From an uncultured delta proteobacterium (lineage in GTDB: Bacteria > Myxococcota > Myxococcia > Myxococcales > 40CM-4-68-19): 64,000 bases of DNA. A program made the translations under genes and the position numbers. Shown piece after piece: positions 5,157 to 61,894 of this stretch; the stretch's first letter is position 1, and each line of letters opens with the position of its first letter. The notes beneath the pieces were generated by a model. It ran no database searches. It had not been told where the DNA came from and worked only from the letters and a program-made list of their open reading frames with translations. Location of the stretch: NCBI GenBank assembly GCA_903911145.1, contig CAIWCD010000024.1, positions 62,001 to 126,000 on the forward strand, read 5' to 3'.

Positions 5157-6554
5157 ATGCTGCAGATGACTCTGTCCGCGCCCGCCCGCACTGTTCTCTT
5201 CGCTGCGCTCGTGCTCGCCGCGTGCACCAGCAGCACGTCTTCGCCAACTGTCGATGCCGGCCCGATCACCGGGACCTGCTCGACTGACGCCGAGTGCGAA
5301 ACCGGCTTCAAGTGCGATGTGCCGACGCGCCAGTGCTACTGCACAGGCGACGCGGCCTGCCCGGCGGGGCTCTTCTGCAACGCGTTCACCGGACTCTGCG
5401 TCAGCTCCGTGCCGGGCTGCACCTCGAACTCTGCGTGCGGCACCGGACAGTATTGCGACGCCGCGCTGCGCACCTGCGAGCTGCTCACCCCTCTCTGCGG
5501 GAAGTGCCACACCGACGCGGAGTGCGGCACCAACAGTTTCTGCGCGGCGAATCCGAACTATCCAACGGCGGGCACGTTCTGCTCTCCCGCCTGCAGCGCG
5601 GTCGACGCCAGCGGGGCCTGCCCGGGGGGCCTCGTCTGCGAGGCGCGCGACTCCACCGTCAACGCCCAGAAGCTCTGCTTCCCCGCGTCGGGCGCGTGCG
5701 GCGTGAACAACGCTTGCGTTCCCGACTCTCTCGCCATCTGCCAGACGTCCGCGAATTGCAACGACCCGACCCAGCAGTGCGACGCCACCGCGCATACCTG
5801 CGTGGCGAAGAATCGCGTCTGCCCGGCGGGCGATTCGTGCGATCCGCAGCAGAAGATCTGCACGCATGCCTGCGCCACCGACGCCGACTGCACGCAACTC
5901 GAGGGCGCAGCCGGATACCAGTGCCGCAACAACGCCTGCTTCCAGCGCGCCACCTGCCACGGCGACAGCGACTGTGCGAACCAGCAGATCTGCGCGCCCA
6001 ACGAAGACGGGAGCAAGAGCTGCAAGCCCGGCTGCGTGAACCCGACGGACTGCCCGATCGGCGAAGGCTGCAACAACGATCCCTCGCATCCGAAGTGCAT
6101 CGCGGGCTGCCAGAGCAACCGCGACTGCCCGCTCAACCAGATCTGCAACAACGCCGCCTGCGCGAGCTCGGTGACCGCCTGCCCGCAGGTCTGCCAGAGC
6201 ACGGCGGTCTGCCCGATCGGCGCGTCATGCAGCGCCAACAACTGTTGCGTCAGCGCGAGCTTCTCCTCGGTCTGCAACAACACCCACTGCAGCTTGAGCC
6301 TCGGAACCGGTTGCCTCGAGCAGTTCGGCCATTCCTGCAACAGCACCAACGACTGCTCTGATCTGCCGAACACGACCTGCGTGCCTGTGTCGGGGAGCAC
6401 CTACTGCGCGGGGACCCTGCAACTGCAAGCGTGCACCGACAACTCGCAGTGCCCGTTCAAGGGCTTCTCTTGTGTGAGCTACGGCACCGGGAACAGCTAC
6501 TGCTCACCGTTCGAGAACGCGGCCATCACCGCCTGCTTCCAGGGGCACCCGTAG
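5157..6554 (+). CDS. Cysteine-rich repeat lipoprotein (Dickkopf-like repeats)
   Basis: Secreted lipoprotein of about 465 residues with lipobox LAAC. Almost the whole mature chain is made of 35-45-residue units with regular Cys spacing, such as CSTDAECETGFKCDVPTRQC, resembling the Dickkopf N-terminal cysteine-rich fold common in Myxococcota exoproteins. More than 60 cysteines imply export to an oxidising compartment and dense disulfide bonding. Function is unknown; structural, adhesive or predation roles are guesses. It follows the Cys-rich Pal-like gene and cpoB at 42 bases, so it may be co-transcribed with them. The start could be ATG 5157 or ATG 5166; the latter has better spacing from GCGAGG. 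Confidence 0.78.
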   Translation: MLQMTLSAPARTVLFAALVLAACTSSTSSPTVDAGPITGTCSTDAECETGFKCDVPTRQCYCTGDAACPAGLFCNAFTGLCVSSVPGCTSNSACGTGQYCDAALRTCELLTPLCGKCHTDAECGTNSFCAANPNYPTAGTFCSPACSAVDASGACPGGLVCEARDSTVNAQKLCFPASGACGVNNACVPDSLAICQTSANCNDPTQQCDATAHTCVAKNRVCPAGDSCDPQQKICTHACATDADCTQLEGAAGYQCRNNACFQRATCHGDSDCANQQICAPNEDGSKSCKPGCVNPTDCPIGEGCNNDPSHPKCIAGCQSNRDCPLNQICNNAACASSVTACPQVCQSTAVCPIGASCSANNCCVSASFSSVCNNTHCSLSLGTGCLEQFGHSCNSTNDCSDLPNTTCVPVSGSTYCAGTLQLQACTDNSQCPFKGFSCVSYGTGNSYCSPFENAAITACFQGHP

Positions 6555-6580
6555 AGCGATAGGCGCGGGCCGCATGATCG

Positions 6581-6627
6581 TTGGTATACCAATCATTGGT
6601 ATGCCAATCATTGGCACTCAAACTAAA
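6581..6627. repeat. Overlapping palindromes and left copy of a 27-bp direct repeat
   Basis: Two tandem 15-bp units (6581-6595 and 6596-6610, TTGGTATACCAATCA and TTGGTATGCCAATCA) run into a partial third. TTGG and CCAA half-sites alternate with spacers of 4 and 3, giving overlapping dyads TTGGTATACCAA and TGCCAATCATTGGCA. Positions 6601-6627 match 8619-8645 at 25 of 27 bases in the same orientation. The stop codon of the next minus-strand gene (6623-6625) lies inside the repeat. It could be an operator cluster or the scar of a mobile unit. Confidence 0.8.
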
Positions 6628-7629: not shown

Positions 7630-8613
7630 GTGGAACTTCCTCGCCCCCGTTCTTCTCAACCTCCGCCCGGCCAGTCGGGCCTCCGCGCGCTGACGGGTGA
7701 CGAGCGGGCCGACTATTTTCGCGGCGTCCACTCGCTCTGGGGCAGCGGGCTCGAACCCGACACGTTCGTCGCCTACCAGCGCCGCCTCGCGAACTCGCCC
7801 GAGGCCGAGTGGCGCTTCGATCTGCTCGGACTCTTCGATGGCGCGCGCCTGCTCTCGGCGATGAAGGCCTATCGTCTTGAGGGGCAGTTTGAGGGCACGC
7901 CGATGCTCATTCGCGGAGTCGGCGCGGTCTTCACGCCGCCTTCGCTGCGCCGCCATGGCTATGCCGAGAAGATGATGCGCCTGTCTCTCGCGCGCTTTGC
8001 TTCCGAGGGATCGCAGGCCGCGCTGCTCTTCTCCGATATCGGCACGCGCTACTACGAGAAGGTCGGGTTCCGCGTGCTCGAGAGCGCCGATTGCAAGGTC
8101 GACGCGAGCCTCTTTCCGAAAGGCCGCGGTGCCCGCGCGGCAGCTCCCGGAGACGAAATGCGCATCTCGCAGGCGCTCGCGCGACACCGCGCCAACTCGG
8201 CGGGGCTCACTCTTCTGCGCGATGGATGGTCGCTGCGCTTCCAGCTTCGGCGACTGCGCGAGCTCGCCCGCGCCCGCGATGTTGGCGAGCCCGATTGGGG
8301 GATGGTCGTCGATGGTCCGGGAAACAGCGCGAGCGCGGCGGCGATGATCCGCCACACCAAGGATGGTCTCGATATTCTCGACGCGGCATGGGACACGGGA
8401 GCGGCGCGCGATGCGCTGCTCGGCTCGATCCGCGAGCGCCTCTCTCGCGCAGGCCGCAGCACCGTCCGCTACTGGCCGACCCACCAACTGCGCGGCCTCT
8501 TCCCCTCAGCGCCGCGCGACAGTTCGATCGCGATGATCGCGCCGCTCCTCCCGTCGGCGCCTGAGATCCCGGTCAACTCGCGCGCGGAGCTGGCGCTGCT
8601 GGATCACATTTGA
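7630..8613 (+). CDS. GNAT N-acetyltransferase, LYC1/Eis-like
   Basis: Acetyl-CoA-dependent acetyltransferase of 327 residues. The N-terminal GNAT domain (about residues 25-165) has the acetyl-CoA loop VFTPPSLRRHGYAEKMMRLS and the late-fold motif LLFSDIGTRYYEKVGF. The SDIG-x-YY element recalls fungal lysine acetyltransferase LYC1-type proteins. The C-terminal half, with a WGMVVDGPG stretch, is a second degenerate domain, as in two-domain GNATs. Substrate is not predictable. It sits tail-to-tail with a lysine 2,3-aminomutase-family gene, which makes beta-lysine acetylation a possibility, but classical AblB is shorter and lies in an operon with AblA. GC-rich codons match the surroundings. Confidence 0.75.
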   Translation: MELPRPRSSQPPPGQSGLRALTGDERADYFRGVHSLWGSGLEPDTFVAYQRRLANSPEAEWRFDLLGLFDGARLLSAMKAYRLEGQFEGTPMLIRGVGAVFTPPSLRRHGYAEKMMRLSLARFASEGSQAALLFSDIGTRYYEKVGFRVLESADCKVDASLFPKGRGARAAAPGDEMRISQALARHRANSAGLTLLRDGWSLRFQLRRLRELARARDVGEPDWGMVVDGPGNSASAAAMIRHTKDGLDILDAAWDTGAARDALLGSIRERLSRAGRSTVRYWPTHQLRGLFPSAPRDSSIAMIAPLLPSAPEIPVNSRAELALLDHI

Positions 8614-8618
8614 TTGCT

Positions 8619-8645
8619 ATGCCAATGATTGGCATTCAAACTAAA
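8619..8645. repeat. Right copy of the 27-bp direct repeat
   Basis: Matches 6601-6627 at 25 of 27 bases in the same orientation, starting six bases after the GNAT stop. Its core is the dyad TGCCAATGATTGGCA. Together the two copies bracket the three-gene block 6623-8613 almost exactly. Confidence 0.8.
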
Positions 8646-8667
8646 ATAGTTTGCACTCAAACGATCT
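8646..8667 (-). repeat. Copy of a dispersed 22-bp AT-rich repeat
   Basis: Reads AGATCGTTTGAGTGCAAAC plus TAT on the minus strand. It matches 61035-61056 at 21 of 22 positions, and looser relatives lie at 6575, 26291 and 28054. It contains the inverted repeat GTTTG-AGTG-CAAAC. Confidence 0.6.
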
Positions 8668-8691
8668 GATCCAGCTCAAATCCACGGTGGT

Positions 8692-8704
8692 GCGGCAGTT
8701 CCCA
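8692..8704 (-). repeat. 3'-flank motif TGGGAACTGCCGC, copy 1
   Basis: A 13-base motif, on the coding strand of the aminomutase gene, 35 bases beyond its stop codon. Exact copies lie 22 bases after the stop at 28004 and 17 bases after the tyrA stop at 60962, each in the sense orientation. The function is unknown. Confidence 0.65.
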
Positions 8705-8739
8705 AGGCCCAACCACCAACGCCGCCGCGGGAGCTCCGC

Positions 8740-10146
8740 CTACGCCTTCACCTGCGCCGCTGCCTGCTCGCGCCAATAGTTCTGGCCGCTCTCGGGCAGG
8801 AGGAAGATCGGATCGAAATATTCATACCGGCGCGAGAGCGCCTCGGGATCCTGCAGCTCGATTCCCGTGCGGTAGTTCTTCGTCCAGTAGGAGATCCCGC
8901 GCTCGCGATCGTACTCGGCGACCTGGTGGATCCAGCGCTTCCCGACGAACGGCACGTCGCAGACGATGCGCGGCGTGGCGAACCCCGGCAGATATCCCAT
9001 GATGTCGTGCTGGAGCTTCTGCGCCTCTCCGACGCTGACGCGCCAATGCTCCGAGTTGGGGATCATGTCGCACATGTAGAAGTAGTAGGGCGTGATGCGC
9101 GCGAAATCCTGCAGCATGAAGCAGAGGTCGAGCAGGTTCTTCGCGGAGTCGTTCACGCCTCGCAGCAGCACGCCCTGGTTGCGCACGTCGCGAAAGCCGA
9201 TCTCGAGCAGCTTCTTCGCGGCGCGCCCGAGCAGCGGCGTCACCTGGTTCGCGTGATTGACGTGCGTGTGCAGCGCGAGGTTCACGTTGCGCGAGAAGGC
9301 CTTCTTCGCGAGCCGCTCGAGCGCGACGATCACCTCGTCCTGCAGGAAGTGCTGCGGGATCCCCATCAGCCCCTTCGAGGCGAGGCGGATATCGCGGATG
9401 TTCTCGATGTCGAGCAGCGCGCTGACGAACGGCTCGAGCTGCTGGATGGGCAGGTTCGCGATGTCGCCGCCCGAGACGACCACGTCGCGCACGCTCGGCG
9501 TCTTGCGCAGATAGTCGAGCATCTGCGACAGGCGATCCTTCTGCGCGACCTGGAACTTCAGCTTCTTCACCTGCGGCACGTTGTTGCCGATCAGGTCCAT
9601 GCGCGTGCAGTGGCCGCAATACTGCGGACAGGTCGAGAGCATCTCCGCGAGCACCTTGGTCGGGTAGCGGTGCGTGAGCCCCTCGACGACCCACATCTCC
9701 TGCTCGTGCAGACTGTCTCGCGACGCGCGCGGGTGGCTCGCCCAATCGGTGCGGCGATCGCTGAACGCGGGCAGCATGTAGCGCCGAAGCGGATCGTTGC
9801 GCAGATCGTGCTCGTTCATCGTGTTGAGCATGTGCGGCGTGACGAGGATCGACATCGTCGCGCGCTCGGCCTGATCCTTCTCGATGTCGAGCGCGAGCTC
9901 GTCGGAGAGCAGCCCGCCGAGGGCTTCCTTCAACTCCTTCAGATTCTTCACCGTGTTCTTGCGCTGCCAGAGCGCGCTCTCCCACTCCTCCTTCGTGACG
10001 CCGCGATAGCCGGGGAAGCGGGTCCAATCGGGCTCGGTGAACGCCCGCTCGAGCGGATAGCGGAACGGCTGCTCAGCGACGCTGCCCGTGGCGGAAGGCT
10101 GCGAAGAGTGCGGGCTGGATGTTCCGGTTGTGGGCACGAGGCTCAA
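8740..10146 (-). CDS. KamA-family radical SAM aminomutase (paralogue 1)
   Basis: Radical SAM, PLP-dependent enzyme of the lysine 2,3-aminomutase family, 468 residues, cytoplasmic. The [4Fe-4S] motif CPQYCGHC is at residues 173-180. VVVSGGDIANL forms the SAM/substrate region and ALHTHVNH the barrel core. CDMIPNSEHWR and CDVPFVGKRW align with the substrate Asp and PLP Lys segments of clostridial KamA. The PLP loop PFVGK is degenerate relative to PGGGGK, so the substrate may not be lysine. The TTG start at 10146 is supported by AGGAG seven bases upstream; GTG 10137 is an alternative. It is divergent from the M50 protease gene and convergent with the GNAT gene. Confidence 0.85.
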   Translation of the reverse strand: MSLVPTTGTSSPHSSQPSATGSVAEQPFRYPLERAFTEPDWTRFPGYRGVTKEEWESALWQRKNTVKNLKELKEALGGLLSDELALDIEKDQAERATMSILVTPHMLNTMNEHDLRNDPLRRYMLPAFSDRRTDWASHPRASRDSLHEQEMWVVEGLTHRYPTKVLAEMLSTCPQYCGHCTRMDLIGNNVPQVKKLKFQVAQKDRLSQMLDYLRKTPSVRDVVVSGGDIANLPIQQLEPFVSALLDIENIRDIRLASKGLMGIPQHFLQDEVIVALERLAKKAFSRNVNLALHTHVNHANQVTPLLGRAAKKLLEIGFRDVRNQGVLLRGVNDSAKNLLDLCFMLQDFARITPYYFYMCDMIPNSEHWRVSVGEAQKLQHDIMGYLPGFATPRIVCDVPFVGKRWIHQVAEYDRERGISYWTKNYRTGIELQDPEALSRRYEYFDPIFLLPESGQNYWREQAAAQVKA

Positions 10147-16512: not shown

Positions 16513-17439
16513 TTGCTGTCGACCCGCGATCTGACGCGACTGCTCTGCGCTCTGCTCGCGCTCGGCGCGCTCTCGTGCGCGACAGGGCGTTCGGCGCGCG
16601 AGCCGCAGGTCGAAGAGCTGCGCGCCCAGCTTGCCGCCCAGGCCGAGCAGCTCAGGCAGCAAGGGCAGCGCATCGAGGAGCTCGAGCTGCGTCTCTCCGC
16701 GGTCGCCGCGCGTTCGTCTGCATCAGCCCCAGCGCAGTCGAGCGCTGTGCCGATCGCACCTGCGTCAGCCGCCTCTTCACCCATCCCCGCGAAGACCGCG
16801 CCCGCGCCCAGCGCGCCCGCGCCGCGCAGCGACCCGGCCGACGCGCCGCCGAAAGCGCTGCAGACCGTCAAGCTGCACCCGCAGAGCGGACGCCTCCCGT
16901 TGCGCGCGCCGCGTCCGAATCCGGTCGAGCGGGCCCCGCGCCTTCCCTCGACCGTGCAGCTCAAGGAGCCCGATGAAGAGCGGCTCGCGGAGCTCGATCA
17001 GCCGCTGCCCGTCGATCCGAACATCCGCGCGCAGGCCGAGGGCGATCACGCCTTCGCGCAGGCCGTGCAGCAGCTCAACGCGGGCGATTTCCTCTCGGCG
17101 CAGACCTCGTTTCTCTCGTTCGCACAGCGCTGGCCACGCGATGCCTCGGCCGACAACGCGGTCTATTTTGCGGGCCTTGCGCGCGCCGCTTCTCACGACT
17201 GCGCGGGCGCGCTCCCCTTGTTCGATCGGGTGATGCACGACTATCCCGCGGGCGATGCGCGCGTTCCGGCACGCCTCGAGAAGGGGCGCTGCCTGCTGAT
17301 GCTCGGCCGCAGCCAGGAAGCCCGCGCGGCGCTTGCGAGGCTCGTCGATGAGAGCCCCGATTCGCTGGAGTCGCAGCAGGCGCGCGCACTGCTTTCGTCT
17401 CACGCAGCCGACTCTCCACATGCGGAGACGGTTCGATAA
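16513..17439 (+). CDS. Coiled-coil/TPR lipoprotein, YbgF-like architecture
   Basis: Lipoprotein of 308 residues with lipobox LGALSC. Residues ~30-65 form a short coiled coil. A Pro/Ala-rich linker runs to ~165. TPR-like units follow (HAFAQAVQQLNAGDFLSAQT, DNAVYFAGLARAASHDCAGA, ARLEKGRCLLMLGRSQEARA). The layout coiled coil-linker-TPR copies CpoB, so this may be a second CpoB-like envelope adaptor, but the sequence is too divergent to name. The TTG start follows GAGG by six bases. The LysM gene begins 62 bases downstream and may be co-expressed. Confidence 0.75.
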   Translation: MLSTRDLTRLLCALLALGALSCATGRSAREPQVEELRAQLAAQAEQLRQQGQRIEELELRLSAVAARSSASAPAQSSAVPIAPASAASSPIPAKTAPAPSAPAPRSDPADAPPKALQTVKLHPQSGRLPLRAPRPNPVERAPRLPSTVQLKEPDEERLAELDQPLPVDPNIRAQAEGDHAFAQAVQQLNAGDFLSAQTSFLSFAQRWPRDASADNAVYFAGLARAASHDCAGALPLFDRVMHDYPAGDARVPARLEKGRCLLMLGRSQEARAALARLVDESPDSLESQQARALLSSHAADSPHAETVR

Positions 17440-17501
17440 TTTTTTGCAAAACCGGGTAAATCGCTGTTTGAAGTCTAGTGAAGCACTGCAAGGAGAGCCT
17501 G

Positions 17502-38415: not shown

Positions 38416-40821
<2,406 letters not shown>

Positions 40822-40839
40822 GTCGAACCTCCGGGGCAA

Positions 40840-40867
40840 ACCGTAAGGACGGGTCGGACCGTGTCAA
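40840..40867 (-). promoter_or_regulatory. Sigma-70 promoter of lon
   Basis: On the minus strand TTGACA (40867-40862), a 16-base spacer and TACGGT (40845-40840). The predicted 5' leader of lon is only about a dozen bases and just covers the ribosome-binding site. Confidence 0.65.
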
Positions 40868-40873
40868 ACTTCG

Positions 40874-40901
40874 ATTATCGAATTCGATAATTTTCGATAA
40901 T
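40874..40901. promoter_or_regulatory. Palindromic operator upstream of lon
   Basis: ATTATCGAATTCGATAAT (40874-40891) is an 18-bp perfect palindrome, with an additional half-site TTCGATAAT at 40893-40901. It ends seven bases upstream of the lon -35 and lies between lon and the divergent gene at 40998. TTCGATAATTTT recurs at 17432-17443, upstream of the LysM gene. Confidence 0.65.
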
Positions 40902-40997
40902 GCCACACGTCGCTCCCTTCGATGCCTGGCGGAGTCGATCGATTCACGCCACCCACATGGCGCGCGAAGTGAGCTCTTTCGCTCGCGGGGATTCAGC

Positions 40998-41744
40998 GTG
41001 ATCATGATCGGCATGATGCTCAACGCCATCTTCGCTGCGCTGCTTGCGCTCTCCTCCGTTGCTGTGCGCGCCGACCAGACCGCGGCTCCTGCACCAACTG
41101 CTGCAGCGCCAGCGACGGCGAAAACGGCGGCTCCGGAAAAGTCGTCTGCGACGCTCCCGGCCGCTCCTGGAGCGCCTCTCCCCGATTCAGCGCTTCCTCC
41201 GCTCCCGCAACTTGATCGCATCGTCTACGCGAAGATCCACTCGGGGATCGTCATCAGCGAGGCGACCGACAGCGAAGGGCACGGCGGCATCGCGCGTGGC
41301 TGGGCTGTCTGCCACTGCACCGTCGACGCAGTCTGGGCCGTGCTGACCAACCACGCGCCGTTCGCGACCTTCATGCCGCGCGTGACGGGCATGGAGATCT
41401 CGAGGCGCACCGAGCACGGCGAGCGCGGCCTGCAGTCGATCGACGCGAGCATCAAGACGGTGAAGTACGCGCTCGACTACAGCTGGGATCCGGCGAAGCG
41501 CTTGATCGAATTTCATCTCGCCAAGGACGTGCCGCACGACCTCAACGAGGTGGATGGCAGCTGGCAGCTCTGGCCCATCGATCACGGCGCGGCCACGCTG
41601 CTGGCCTACCAGAGCGCGGTCGACACCGGCGCGCAGATCCCGGGATTCATCCGCAGCTATCTGGCGGATCGGGGAGTGAAAGACACGATGGAGGCGATTC
41701 GCAAGCGGGCGGAGGCAAATCCGGTTTCTCGCTCCCCCCCATAG
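40998..41744 (+). CDS. Secreted SRPBCC/START-like protein
   Basis: Periplasmic protein of about 248 residues. A signal peptide ends at AVRADQ and an Ala/Pro/Thr-rich linker follows. From residue ~80 there is an SRPBCC (polyketide-cyclase/START-like) lipid-binding fold: GIARGWAVCHCTVDAVWAVL, FMPRVTGMEISRR, then WDPAKRLIEFHL and DGSWQLWPID strands, closing with the long helix PGFIRSYLADRGVKDTMEAI. A role in lipid or hydrophobic ligand handling is likely by family only. GTG 40998 follows GGGG by seven bases; ATG 41004 and ATG 41013 are alternatives. It shares the divergent promoter region with lon. Confidence 0.78.
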   Translation: MIMIGMMLNAIFAALLALSSVAVRADQTAAPAPTAAAPATAKTAAPEKSSATLPAAPGAPLPDSALPPLPQLDRIVYAKIHSGIVISEATDSEGHGGIARGWAVCHCTVDAVWAVLTNHAPFATFMPRVTGMEISRRTEHGERGLQSIDASIKTVKYALDYSWDPAKRLIEFHLAKDVPHDLNEVDGSWQLWPIDHGAATLLAYQSAVDTGAQIPGFIRSYLADRGVKDTMEAIRKRAEANPVSRSPP

Positions 41745-60961: not shown

Positions 60962-61894
60962 CTACCGCCGCGGAGGGAGGCGCATCGACCGCCTTCGATC
61001 GGCGAGCTGCTCGAGGTCGCGGGCGAGCGGCGCGAGATCGTTTGAGTGCAAACCATCTTCGATCTGCGCTGCGAACGCGTTGAGCGAAGTGGCAACCCTG
61101 CGCAGCACCTCGGGCAGGAAACGATTGTGCACCGCGGCCTGCCCCACGGTTCCATCTGCCGCGAGCCGCGTGGTGTCGCGAAACCCGCCAGCAGCAAGGG
61201 CGCGCGCGATTCTGCTGCTGGCGCCCGCCTGCTCGAGTGCCGCGAAAACCGACGCGGCGGCGAGCGCCGGAAGGTGCGAAGCGTAGGCGACGGCGCGGTC
61301 GTGTTCACGCGGAGTGAGAGTGAGAAATCGGGTCGCGCCTGCTTCGCTCCAGAGTGCGCGCACGGCCTCGAGGGCTGCGGAGCTCCACGCGCGATTGCCG
61401 CTCGCGATCCCGACGGCGGGGCAGAGCGCGACGCAGGCCTCGTCGAAGAGATCGGCCCGCGCGGCCGTAAAGCCACGCTCTTCGCGTCCCGCCATCGGAT
61501 GTGCGCCGACAAATACGATCTGCTTCTGGGCCGCGCCCAGTGCGGTCGGGAGCTCCTTCACGCCGCACACGTCGGTGAGCAGAGCGGCTGCGTGCATCTG
61601 CGCAGCGATGCCCGGCAGCGACTCAAGCAGCGCGGGCGTCGGCGTGCAGAGAACGATCAGATCGCACGATACGAAGGGCGCACGAGACGGATGAGCAGCG
61701 AGATCGATCGCGCCAGACCTCTTCGCGGAGGCGAGCGATCTCGAGTTGGTGTCGACTCCCAGGATCTCGATTCGCCGCGCGCTCTGATTCGAGGTCGCGT
61801 GCGCAGAGCCTTGCTGGGCGCGGCTTTCCGCACGTCGCAGCGAAAGCGCGAGAGATCCACCGATGAGGCCGAGTCCGACGATTCCGATGCGCAT
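60962..61894 (-). CDS. tyrA: Prephenate/arogenate dehydrogenase
   Basis: NAD(P)-dependent oxidative decarboxylation of prephenate (or arogenate) on the tyrosine branch, 310 residues. The Rossmann start is IGIVGLGLIGGSLALSLRR. VLCTPTPALLESLP, VCGVKELPTAL, GAHPMAGREERGFTAARADL and SHLPALAAASVFAAL are family motifs, containing the catalytic His and substrate Arg. There is no fused chorismate mutase or ACT domain; the mutase activity is supplied elsewhere, for example by the fused enzyme at 49518. Near its end the DNA (61035-61053) contains a 19-base exact match to an intergenic stretch at 8649-8667. Confidence 0.92.
   Translation of the reverse strand: MRIGIVGLGLIGGSLALSLRRAESRAQQGSAHATSNQSARRIEILGVDTNSRSLASAKRSGAIDLAAHPSRAPFVSCDLIVLCTPTPALLESLPGIAAQMHAAALLTDVCGVKELPTALGAAQKQIVFVGAHPMAGREERGFTAARADLFDEACVALCPAVGIASGNRAWSSAALEAVRALWSEAGATRFLTLTPREHDRAVAYASHLPALAAASVFAALEQAGASSRIARALAAGGFRDTTRLAADGTVGQAAVHNRFLPEVLRRVATSLNAFAAQIEDGLHSNDLAPLARDLEQLADRRRSMRLPPRR
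61035..61056 (+). repeat. Dispersed 22-bp repeat copy inside tyrA
   Basis: Matches the minus-strand 8667-8646 copy at 21 of 22 positions, including a 19-base perfect run. It encodes GLHSNDL in TyrA on the opposite strand. Confidence 0.55.

Follow-up and report, generated by a model that had tools for sequence, protein, structure and literature searches.

A palindrome upstream of lon in an uncultured member of the Myxococcota belongs to a lineage-restricted family of helically phased octamer arrays

The perfect 18-bp palindrome ATTATCGAATTCGATAAT upstream of lon, together with the extra half-site beside it, is a real feature and not the product of chance, and it belongs to a family of octamer arrays scattered over the chromosome of an uncultured member of the Myxococcota. 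We predict that the palindrome is part of an array for a sequence-specific DNA-binding protein, most likely a global or nucleoid-associated protein or a broad regulator and probably not a dedicated repressor. The window, the 64,000-nt stretch of DNA that was analysed, corresponds to C24:62001-126000 of a 5.30-Mb draft genome (G000; 53 contigs, 98.96% complete).

The palindrome reported in the preliminary description is present at 40874..40891, where two octamer half-sites stand tail to tail at an offset of 8, between lon and a divergent polyketide cyclase-like gene (Table 1). The extra half-site also reported there, TTCGATAAT, follows at 40893-40901. The lon array thus has three exact units, and a degenerate half-site reads TTCGATTAT over 40870-40878. 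No second match to the 18-bp palindrome was found in the window at up to three mismatches (0.04 expected in shuffles).

Table 1. Features of the lon and LysM upstream regions (positions in the window)
Feature	Position	Strand	Remarks
lon, ATP-dependent protease, 801 aa	38416..40821	-	ORF and Lon domains; ATG at 40821
lon promoter -10, TACGGT	40840..40845	-	16-nt spacer; conserved as TACGGT/TACGTT/TACCTT
lon promoter -35, TTGACA	40862..40867	-	conserved as TTTGACAC
Degenerate half-site (TTCGATTA on +)	40870..40877	-	13 bp from next minus half-site
Half-site TTATCGAA	40875..40882	+	
Half-site (TTCGATAA on +)	40883..40890	-	
Half-site (TTCGATAA on +)	40893..40900	-	direct repeat, 10 bp from half-site 40883..40890
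Polyketide cyclase / SRPBCC-type protein gene, divergent to lon	41004..41744	+	
Plausible weak array, TTCGATAA (17432-17439) and TTTGCAAA (17443-17450), 11 bp apart	17432..17450	-	upstream of LysM gene (17502)

Searches of the 5.3-Mb genome returned 27 sites for the palindrome pattern ATTATCGANNTCGATAAT at up to three mismatches, against one for the reversed control. The direct-repeat form TTNNCGAAN{0,4}TTNNCGAA gave 30 matches (13 + 17) against one, and the inverted form TTNNCGAN{0,1}TTCGNNAA gave 28 against two, at 20 places, as palindromes count on both strands. Many further copies therefore exist, and the objection that the palindrome might be a solitary feature of this genome, raised in the preliminary description, does not hold. 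De-duplication of loci L001-L056, many of which overlap, left 28 distinct arrays of the octamers TTATCGAA, TTACCGAA and TTTGCGAA, each with at least two exact half-sites of these sequences near the locus centre, and the inverted-form search added four further dyads (L314-L317). Left out of the 28 were L004, L005, L008, L010-L012, L015 and L020-L027 (for the most part coding background or lone half-sites), L028 (in which the second unit is TTGCCGAA) and the GC-rich variants L044 and L047; the inverted-form matches C1:43965 (GC-rich) and C49:99155 (the same as L004) were also left out. Thirteen of 20 fetched stretches were chosen for holding matches, and the unselected set of 604 kb comprises the window, 7 stretches and 20 more. 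TTATCGAA is rare in the gaps between genes of this unselected set (four occurrences, three of them at lon). Octamer counts are inflated by one gene whose long internal repeat (F-D-K codons, by eye; L104:3340-6000) contains TTCGATAAG eight times.

The arrays are restricted to one lineage. The strict tandem TTATCGAAN{1,2}TTATCGAA occurs in four of 195 genomes of the phylum (eight matches in G000, four in G002, two in G011 and one in G007), all within a family of 12 genomes, and there is no reversed-control match in the table. A looser direct pattern exceeds its reversed control in G000 (30 against 1), G002 (20 against 2), G011 (13 against 1), G010 (10 against 1) and G007 (14 against 6); the other seven family genomes have 3-7 matches against 0-4, mostly GC-rich variants. 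At up to one mismatch, TTATCGAATTCGATAA was found in two of 60 genomes, G000 itself and G002. It is most improbable that chance or AT-rich drift in spacers generated this pattern. Single octamers in 786,840 bp of coding sequence do occur at the expected frequency (41, versus 40.2 expected from within-gene synonymous shuffles), and isolated octamers may well be chance; however, the arrays stand at 30:1 over reversed controls and at zero in shuffles, by which chance is refuted as their source, and the strict tandem is absent from the other 191 phylum genomes.

The repeating unit is larger than the palindrome and is helically phased. Preferred offsets between half-sites are 9-10 and 21-23 bp for direct pairs, and 7-8, 17-18 and 27 bp for tail-to-tail pairs. 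When half-sites with up to one mismatch are counted, direct offsets of 9-10 bp make up 26 of the 31 in the range of 8-12 bp (P 7e-7), those of 21-23 bp 15 of the 22 in 13-30 bp (P 1e-7), and tail-to-tail offsets of 17-18 bp 17 of the 21 in 12-25 bp (P 1e-11), pairs within one array not being independent of each other. The search patterns themselves favour direct offsets of 8-12 and inverted offsets of 8, so phasing is tested more cleanly by the longer offsets. The ideal array, written ++/--, covers 35 bp, with a pair of direct copies, 10 bp apart, opposite a pair of inverted ones. Complete arrays have the form TTATCGAA nn TTATCGA TTCGATAA nn TTCGATAA (L030, L032, L050 and L055, in which some units carry one mismatch), and many of the others are subsets of this scheme, so that half-site number, order and spacer vary and the length is not fixed. 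The putative protein would recognize TTATCGAA, its variants TTACCGAA and TTTGCGAA and probably TTTGCAAA, and may bind cooperatively on a single helix face, with ++/-- as the ideal arrangement; at lon it would occupy an operator array of three to four units that includes the palindrome.

Gene calls made with a home-made codon model place 18 of the 28 arrays in codirectional gaps, eight in coding sequence, one in a convergent gap and one, that of lon, in a divergent gap. Divergent gaps provide 37.7% of the positions in which 35 bp fit, yet hold only one of 20 arrays (P 0.001). In codirectional gaps, none of the 18 arrays begins more than 39 nt beyond the upstream stop codon, and two overlap it. 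Conditional on gap length, their displacement towards this stop has a P of 0.004 (16 arrays, leaving out the two that overlap), and the P of 8e-11 obtained by random placement is inflated by short gaps. The array lies close against the stop in each of the four codirectional gaps that leave at least 100 nt downstream. The flanking genes, named from Pfam matches for 30 of the 62 listed flanking or containing proteins (three of the 30 without a match) or by eye, largely have core functions, including gyrB, rplX-rplE, groEL, EF-G, rpsA, PNPase and sdhA-sdhB, along with HtrA/DUF1844/ClpB and peptidases of the S49, M3, M1 and M20 types, and no single function unites them. Among the 30 proteins scanned with Pfam, no transcription regulator was recognizable beside the arrays. 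About thirty arrays would thus serve the putative protein across the chromosome, mainly behind stop codons and within genes, with few in divergent promoter regions. Given this spread over gene ends and interiors and the avoidance of divergent regions, a global, nucleoid-associated, chromosome-organizing or broad regulatory protein is most likely.

The proximity of 18 of the 28 arrays to a stop codon and the depletion of divergent gaps could also indicate an element acting in RNA, as a 3'-UTR hairpin, a terminator or a translation-control motif between a stop and the next gene. As RNA, full ++/-- arrays form strong hairpins (z -6.7 for L050 and -6.2 for L055), and the arrays behind groEL, fusA and rpsA are followed, by eye, by terminator-like hairpins. 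However, the partial arrays L054 (z 0.2) and L042 (z 0.84) fold no better than shuffles, exact half-sites in codirectional gaps are about equally sense and antisense (23 versus 28), and neither direct-repeat phasing nor loop-free contiguous palindromes are features of hairpins. Moreover, the lon array lies upstream of its own promoter, and no Rfam match was found at E<=1 in 40400-41400. The balance of orientations, the loop-free palindrome and the poor folding of L054 and L042 argue for action at the level of DNA. Thus, we consider an RNA element quite unlikely as a general explanation, although complete arrays may act through RNA behind some genes.

The M20 peptidase gene contains TTATCGAAAATCTTATCGAAATTATCGAA, which encodes L-S-K-I-L-S-K-L-S-N, and the triple array is a matter of codon choice (TTA TCG AAA ...); TTA makes up 0.35% of leucine codons. 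In the nine orthologues aligned, this stretch has no indel and no array. The match to the G007 orthologue (L198; G007:C224:11732-13135) contains a single in-frame TGA. Coding octamer pairs or arrays number four, versus none in 100 synonymous shuffles, and all four lie in stretches chosen for matches. Unselected coding sequence (552,816 bp) has none, so that the coding evidence rests on arrays from the genome search.

The arrays of the relatives are mostly in coding sequence, several at shared places. In the DUF2400 gene, G002 and G007, which belong to different genera, share the identical 23-nt stretch CATTATCGAAAGTTATCGAATCT within an alignment of 74% identity. At the same place, G006 has a different cluster of TTTGCAAA, TTATCGAA and TTCGATAA at 0, 11 and 25, the last off the preferred offsets, and no array was found there in G009, G004, G005, G003, G010 or G000. 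At this site (L319-L328), G010 has an odd insertion that is first AT-rich and then glycine-rich, and G000 has two additional residues. The site seems to be a variable loop in which change is tolerated. In a U32 peptidase gene, G007 and G010 carry TTACCGAAATTACCGAAT, read as ITEIT, where the nine other genomes aligned have IEEIR, IDEIR or, in G000, IAEMA; again, there is no indel in the aligned stretch. The pairs G007-G010 and G007-G011 share two further places, and G005 has a G007 array with one base changed. Same-genus pairs are 78-80% identical, so inheritance alone could explain the sharing within these pairs. Array positions turn over: apart from lon, no array place of G000 recurs among the arrays fetched from relatives.

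The dispersal of the copies and their preference for gaps could alternatively point to a mobile or amplified repeat, similar to REP or MITE elements, that was copied into gaps. The rplX-rplE gap is 52 nt long with its array; in the seven relatives read, G003 and G005 not among them, the gap is shorter and lacks half-sites. Arrays also co-occur with a second repeat family. Against such a repeat, the arrays have no fixed length or composition, and those in coding sequence arose by substitution, with no indel in the aligned M20 and U32 stretches. A conserved unit copied by insertion, as in REP/BIME or MITE elements, is therefore rejected, the longer rplX-rplE gap being the one gap array compared, and we regard a mobile repeat as very unlikely. 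The balanced orientations and the substitution origin of the aligned coding cases are better explained by DNA-protein binding than by an RNA element or a mobile repeat.

The second repeat family consists of TTTGAGTGC and TTGGYATRCCAA units, often 15 bp apart, and of AGATCGTTTG-AGTG-CAAACGATCT. It occurs in the window at 6554-6622, 8613-8740 and 61040-61052, and elsewhere at L108:7382-7451, L166:13945, L168:14503, L180:13965 and L182:12503, sometimes directly beside TTATCGAA arrays. This family is concentrated in convergent gaps (about 7 of 55 in the unselected sample, by eye). Its words CACTCAA and ATTGGCA are each found in 12 of 300 post-stop flanks and in none of 112 divergent 5' flanks.

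The preliminary description proposed a repressor of lon, perhaps acting jointly on a LysM-domain gene, upstream of which TTCGATAATTTT was correctly located at 17432. As a string, TTCGATAATTTT has two matches versus 0.69 expected at up to two mismatches, which is not significant. The LysM site has the layout TTCGATAA-N3-TTTGCAAA, and its half-site at 17432 contains the stop codon of the gene before LysM (16513-17439). When the 457 windows upstream of genes in the unselected 604-kb sample are ranked by a phased-pair score, lon comes first and LysM second (13.3; the next scores 9.8), so the lon/LysM pairing is better founded than by the bare string match. These ranks, and the strong lon array in G002, would suit a dedicated regulator that acts on the palindrome to control lon and perhaps LysM, with the other arrays as spare or decoy sites. 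Yet 27 of the 28 arrays lie outside divergent gaps, the lon array does not overlap its promoter, the LysM site overlaps a stop codon, and the 30 neighbours scanned include no regulator. We thus consider such local repression unlikely. What stands of the proposal is the appearance of a protein site, its genomic copies, its place beside the conserved lon promoter in two genera and the second rank of LysM; a repressor specific to lon and LysM is disfavoured, as there are about 30 sites, mostly away from promoters.

The lon promoter is sigma-70-like. The strong -35 and 16-nt spacer noted earlier are present, and the -35/-10 pair is kept in all eight genomes, G000 included, that have a readable lon upstream region, in the form TTTGACAC-N~15-TTACGGT/TTACGTT/TTACCTT. 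A looser form of the eight is TTTGACAC-N~15-TTACNNT. Nine family genomes were examined for this comparison, and the G011 locus is without a start. The -10 element is weak (three of six consensus matches), and a consensus promoter scan at lon found no promoter. Homologues of lon occur in all 12 family genomes; those of G003, G004 and G005 are only 54-55% identical, and neither this promoter nor an array was found upstream of them. In G002 the start codon lies about 6 nt after the -10 element, which suggests a leaderless lon mRNA.

Conservation of the lon array is uneven. With a phased-pair score trained on arrays other than lon and compared with 500 shuffles per genome, lon scores 34.0 in G000 and 32.5 in G002, a member of another genus (0 of 500 shuffles each). 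The scores are weaker in G010 (9.6; 1 of 500) and G007 (1.4; 8 of 500), and weak or at background in G006 (3.6; 17 of 500), G008 (0.7; 25 of 500), G009 (-1.7; 29 of 500) and G001 (-6.1; 59 of 500). The direct pair of the G002 array has the opposite orientation, and the edge lies 21 rather than 6 nt from TTTGACA. As for phylogenetic conservation of the palindrome, on which the preliminary description had staked its proposal, the lon array is strong in one other genus, weaker in G010 and G007, and at background in G001.

The lon array of G000 lies wholly upstream of the -35 element, its edge 6 nt from TTTGACA, and spans about -37 to -68 if transcription starts about 7 nt after the -10 element. 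Activators and architectural proteins usually bind at such a position, unlike repressors that act by blocking RNA polymerase. Once bound, the protein would most likely enhance or adjust transcription from the TTGACA-N16-TACGGT promoter; the location favours polymerase contact or DNA bending over occlusion.

If a broadly acting protein does bind the arrays, they represent a global DNA-binding system in an uncultured bacterial family that can be read from sequence alone, with binding sites that place constraints on gene ends and on the codons of proteins and that spread by point substitution within a few genera. The lon promoter could then serve as bait for finding the protein. A possible, more tentative reading is that a family-specific protein organizes DNA or insulates gene ends by way of phased arrays close behind stop codons and within genes, with a need for sites that forces rare codons and amino-acid changes (as in U32 and DUF2400 of the relatives) and a secondary, promoter-proximal use at lon. 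Such a system of chromosomal sites would be of a new kind.

Several known systems invite comparison with a broadly acting protein on phased arrays. The CIRCE operator of HrcA is TTAGCACTC-N9-GAGTGCTAA, with arms GCACTC/GAGTGC; these arms are absent from 40840-40901, and the earlier statement that the palindrome is not CIRCE was sound. The sigma-32 consensus was compared with the lon upstream region by eye. Spo0A binds 0A-boxes, TTGTCGAA in tandem at 10 bp, and the arrays have a similar octamer and spacing; Spo0A itself is rejected, as Spo0A_C (PF08769) had no match in G000 and the positive control was found in Bacillus subtilis. Response regulators of the OmpR/PhoB class bind direct repeats of about 10 bp cooperatively, on one helix face and upstream of the -35 element. 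The arrays share the direct repeats about 10-11 bp apart, but unlike such operators form ++/-- dyads and lie mostly at gene ends or inside genes, and no candidate OmpR-family regulator was found among the 30 neighbours scanned. The chromosome-organizing sites matS and those bound by SlmA and Noc are sequence-specific single palindromes, tens of them in coding and non-coding DNA. The octamer sites likewise number tens in both kinds of DNA, but form phased arrays.

We found no report of the octamer array itself among the titles listed for the octamers, or in a search for lon-promoter or intragenic tandem sites. The nearest published pattern found is that of the TAACTGA repeats of marine Beggiatoaceae, which are sets of two to six heptamers, direct repeats with one exception, mostly intergenic just upstream of start codons and proposed to act at the RNA level; some lie within ORFs or over stop codons, ribosomal operons are included, and the distribution among relatives is patchy (PMC4679880). 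The octamer arrays resemble these in their short sets, mostly intergenic position with some cases in ORFs or over stops, presence in ribosomal operons and patchy distribution. They differ in their likely level of action and in that octamers are spaced 9-11 bp, occur in both orientations and lie mostly after stops or in codons, and this geometry and placement exclude a repeat of the TAACTGA type (heptamers adjoining one another, all in one orientation, ahead of start codons). For lon, control of lonD by HsfA, an NtrC-like regulator, is reported in Myxococcus xanthus (PMC9109919). In both cases, a lon gene has a specific DNA-binding regulator, putative here, but the lon gene studied here differs in its sigma-70-like promoter and in having another motif.
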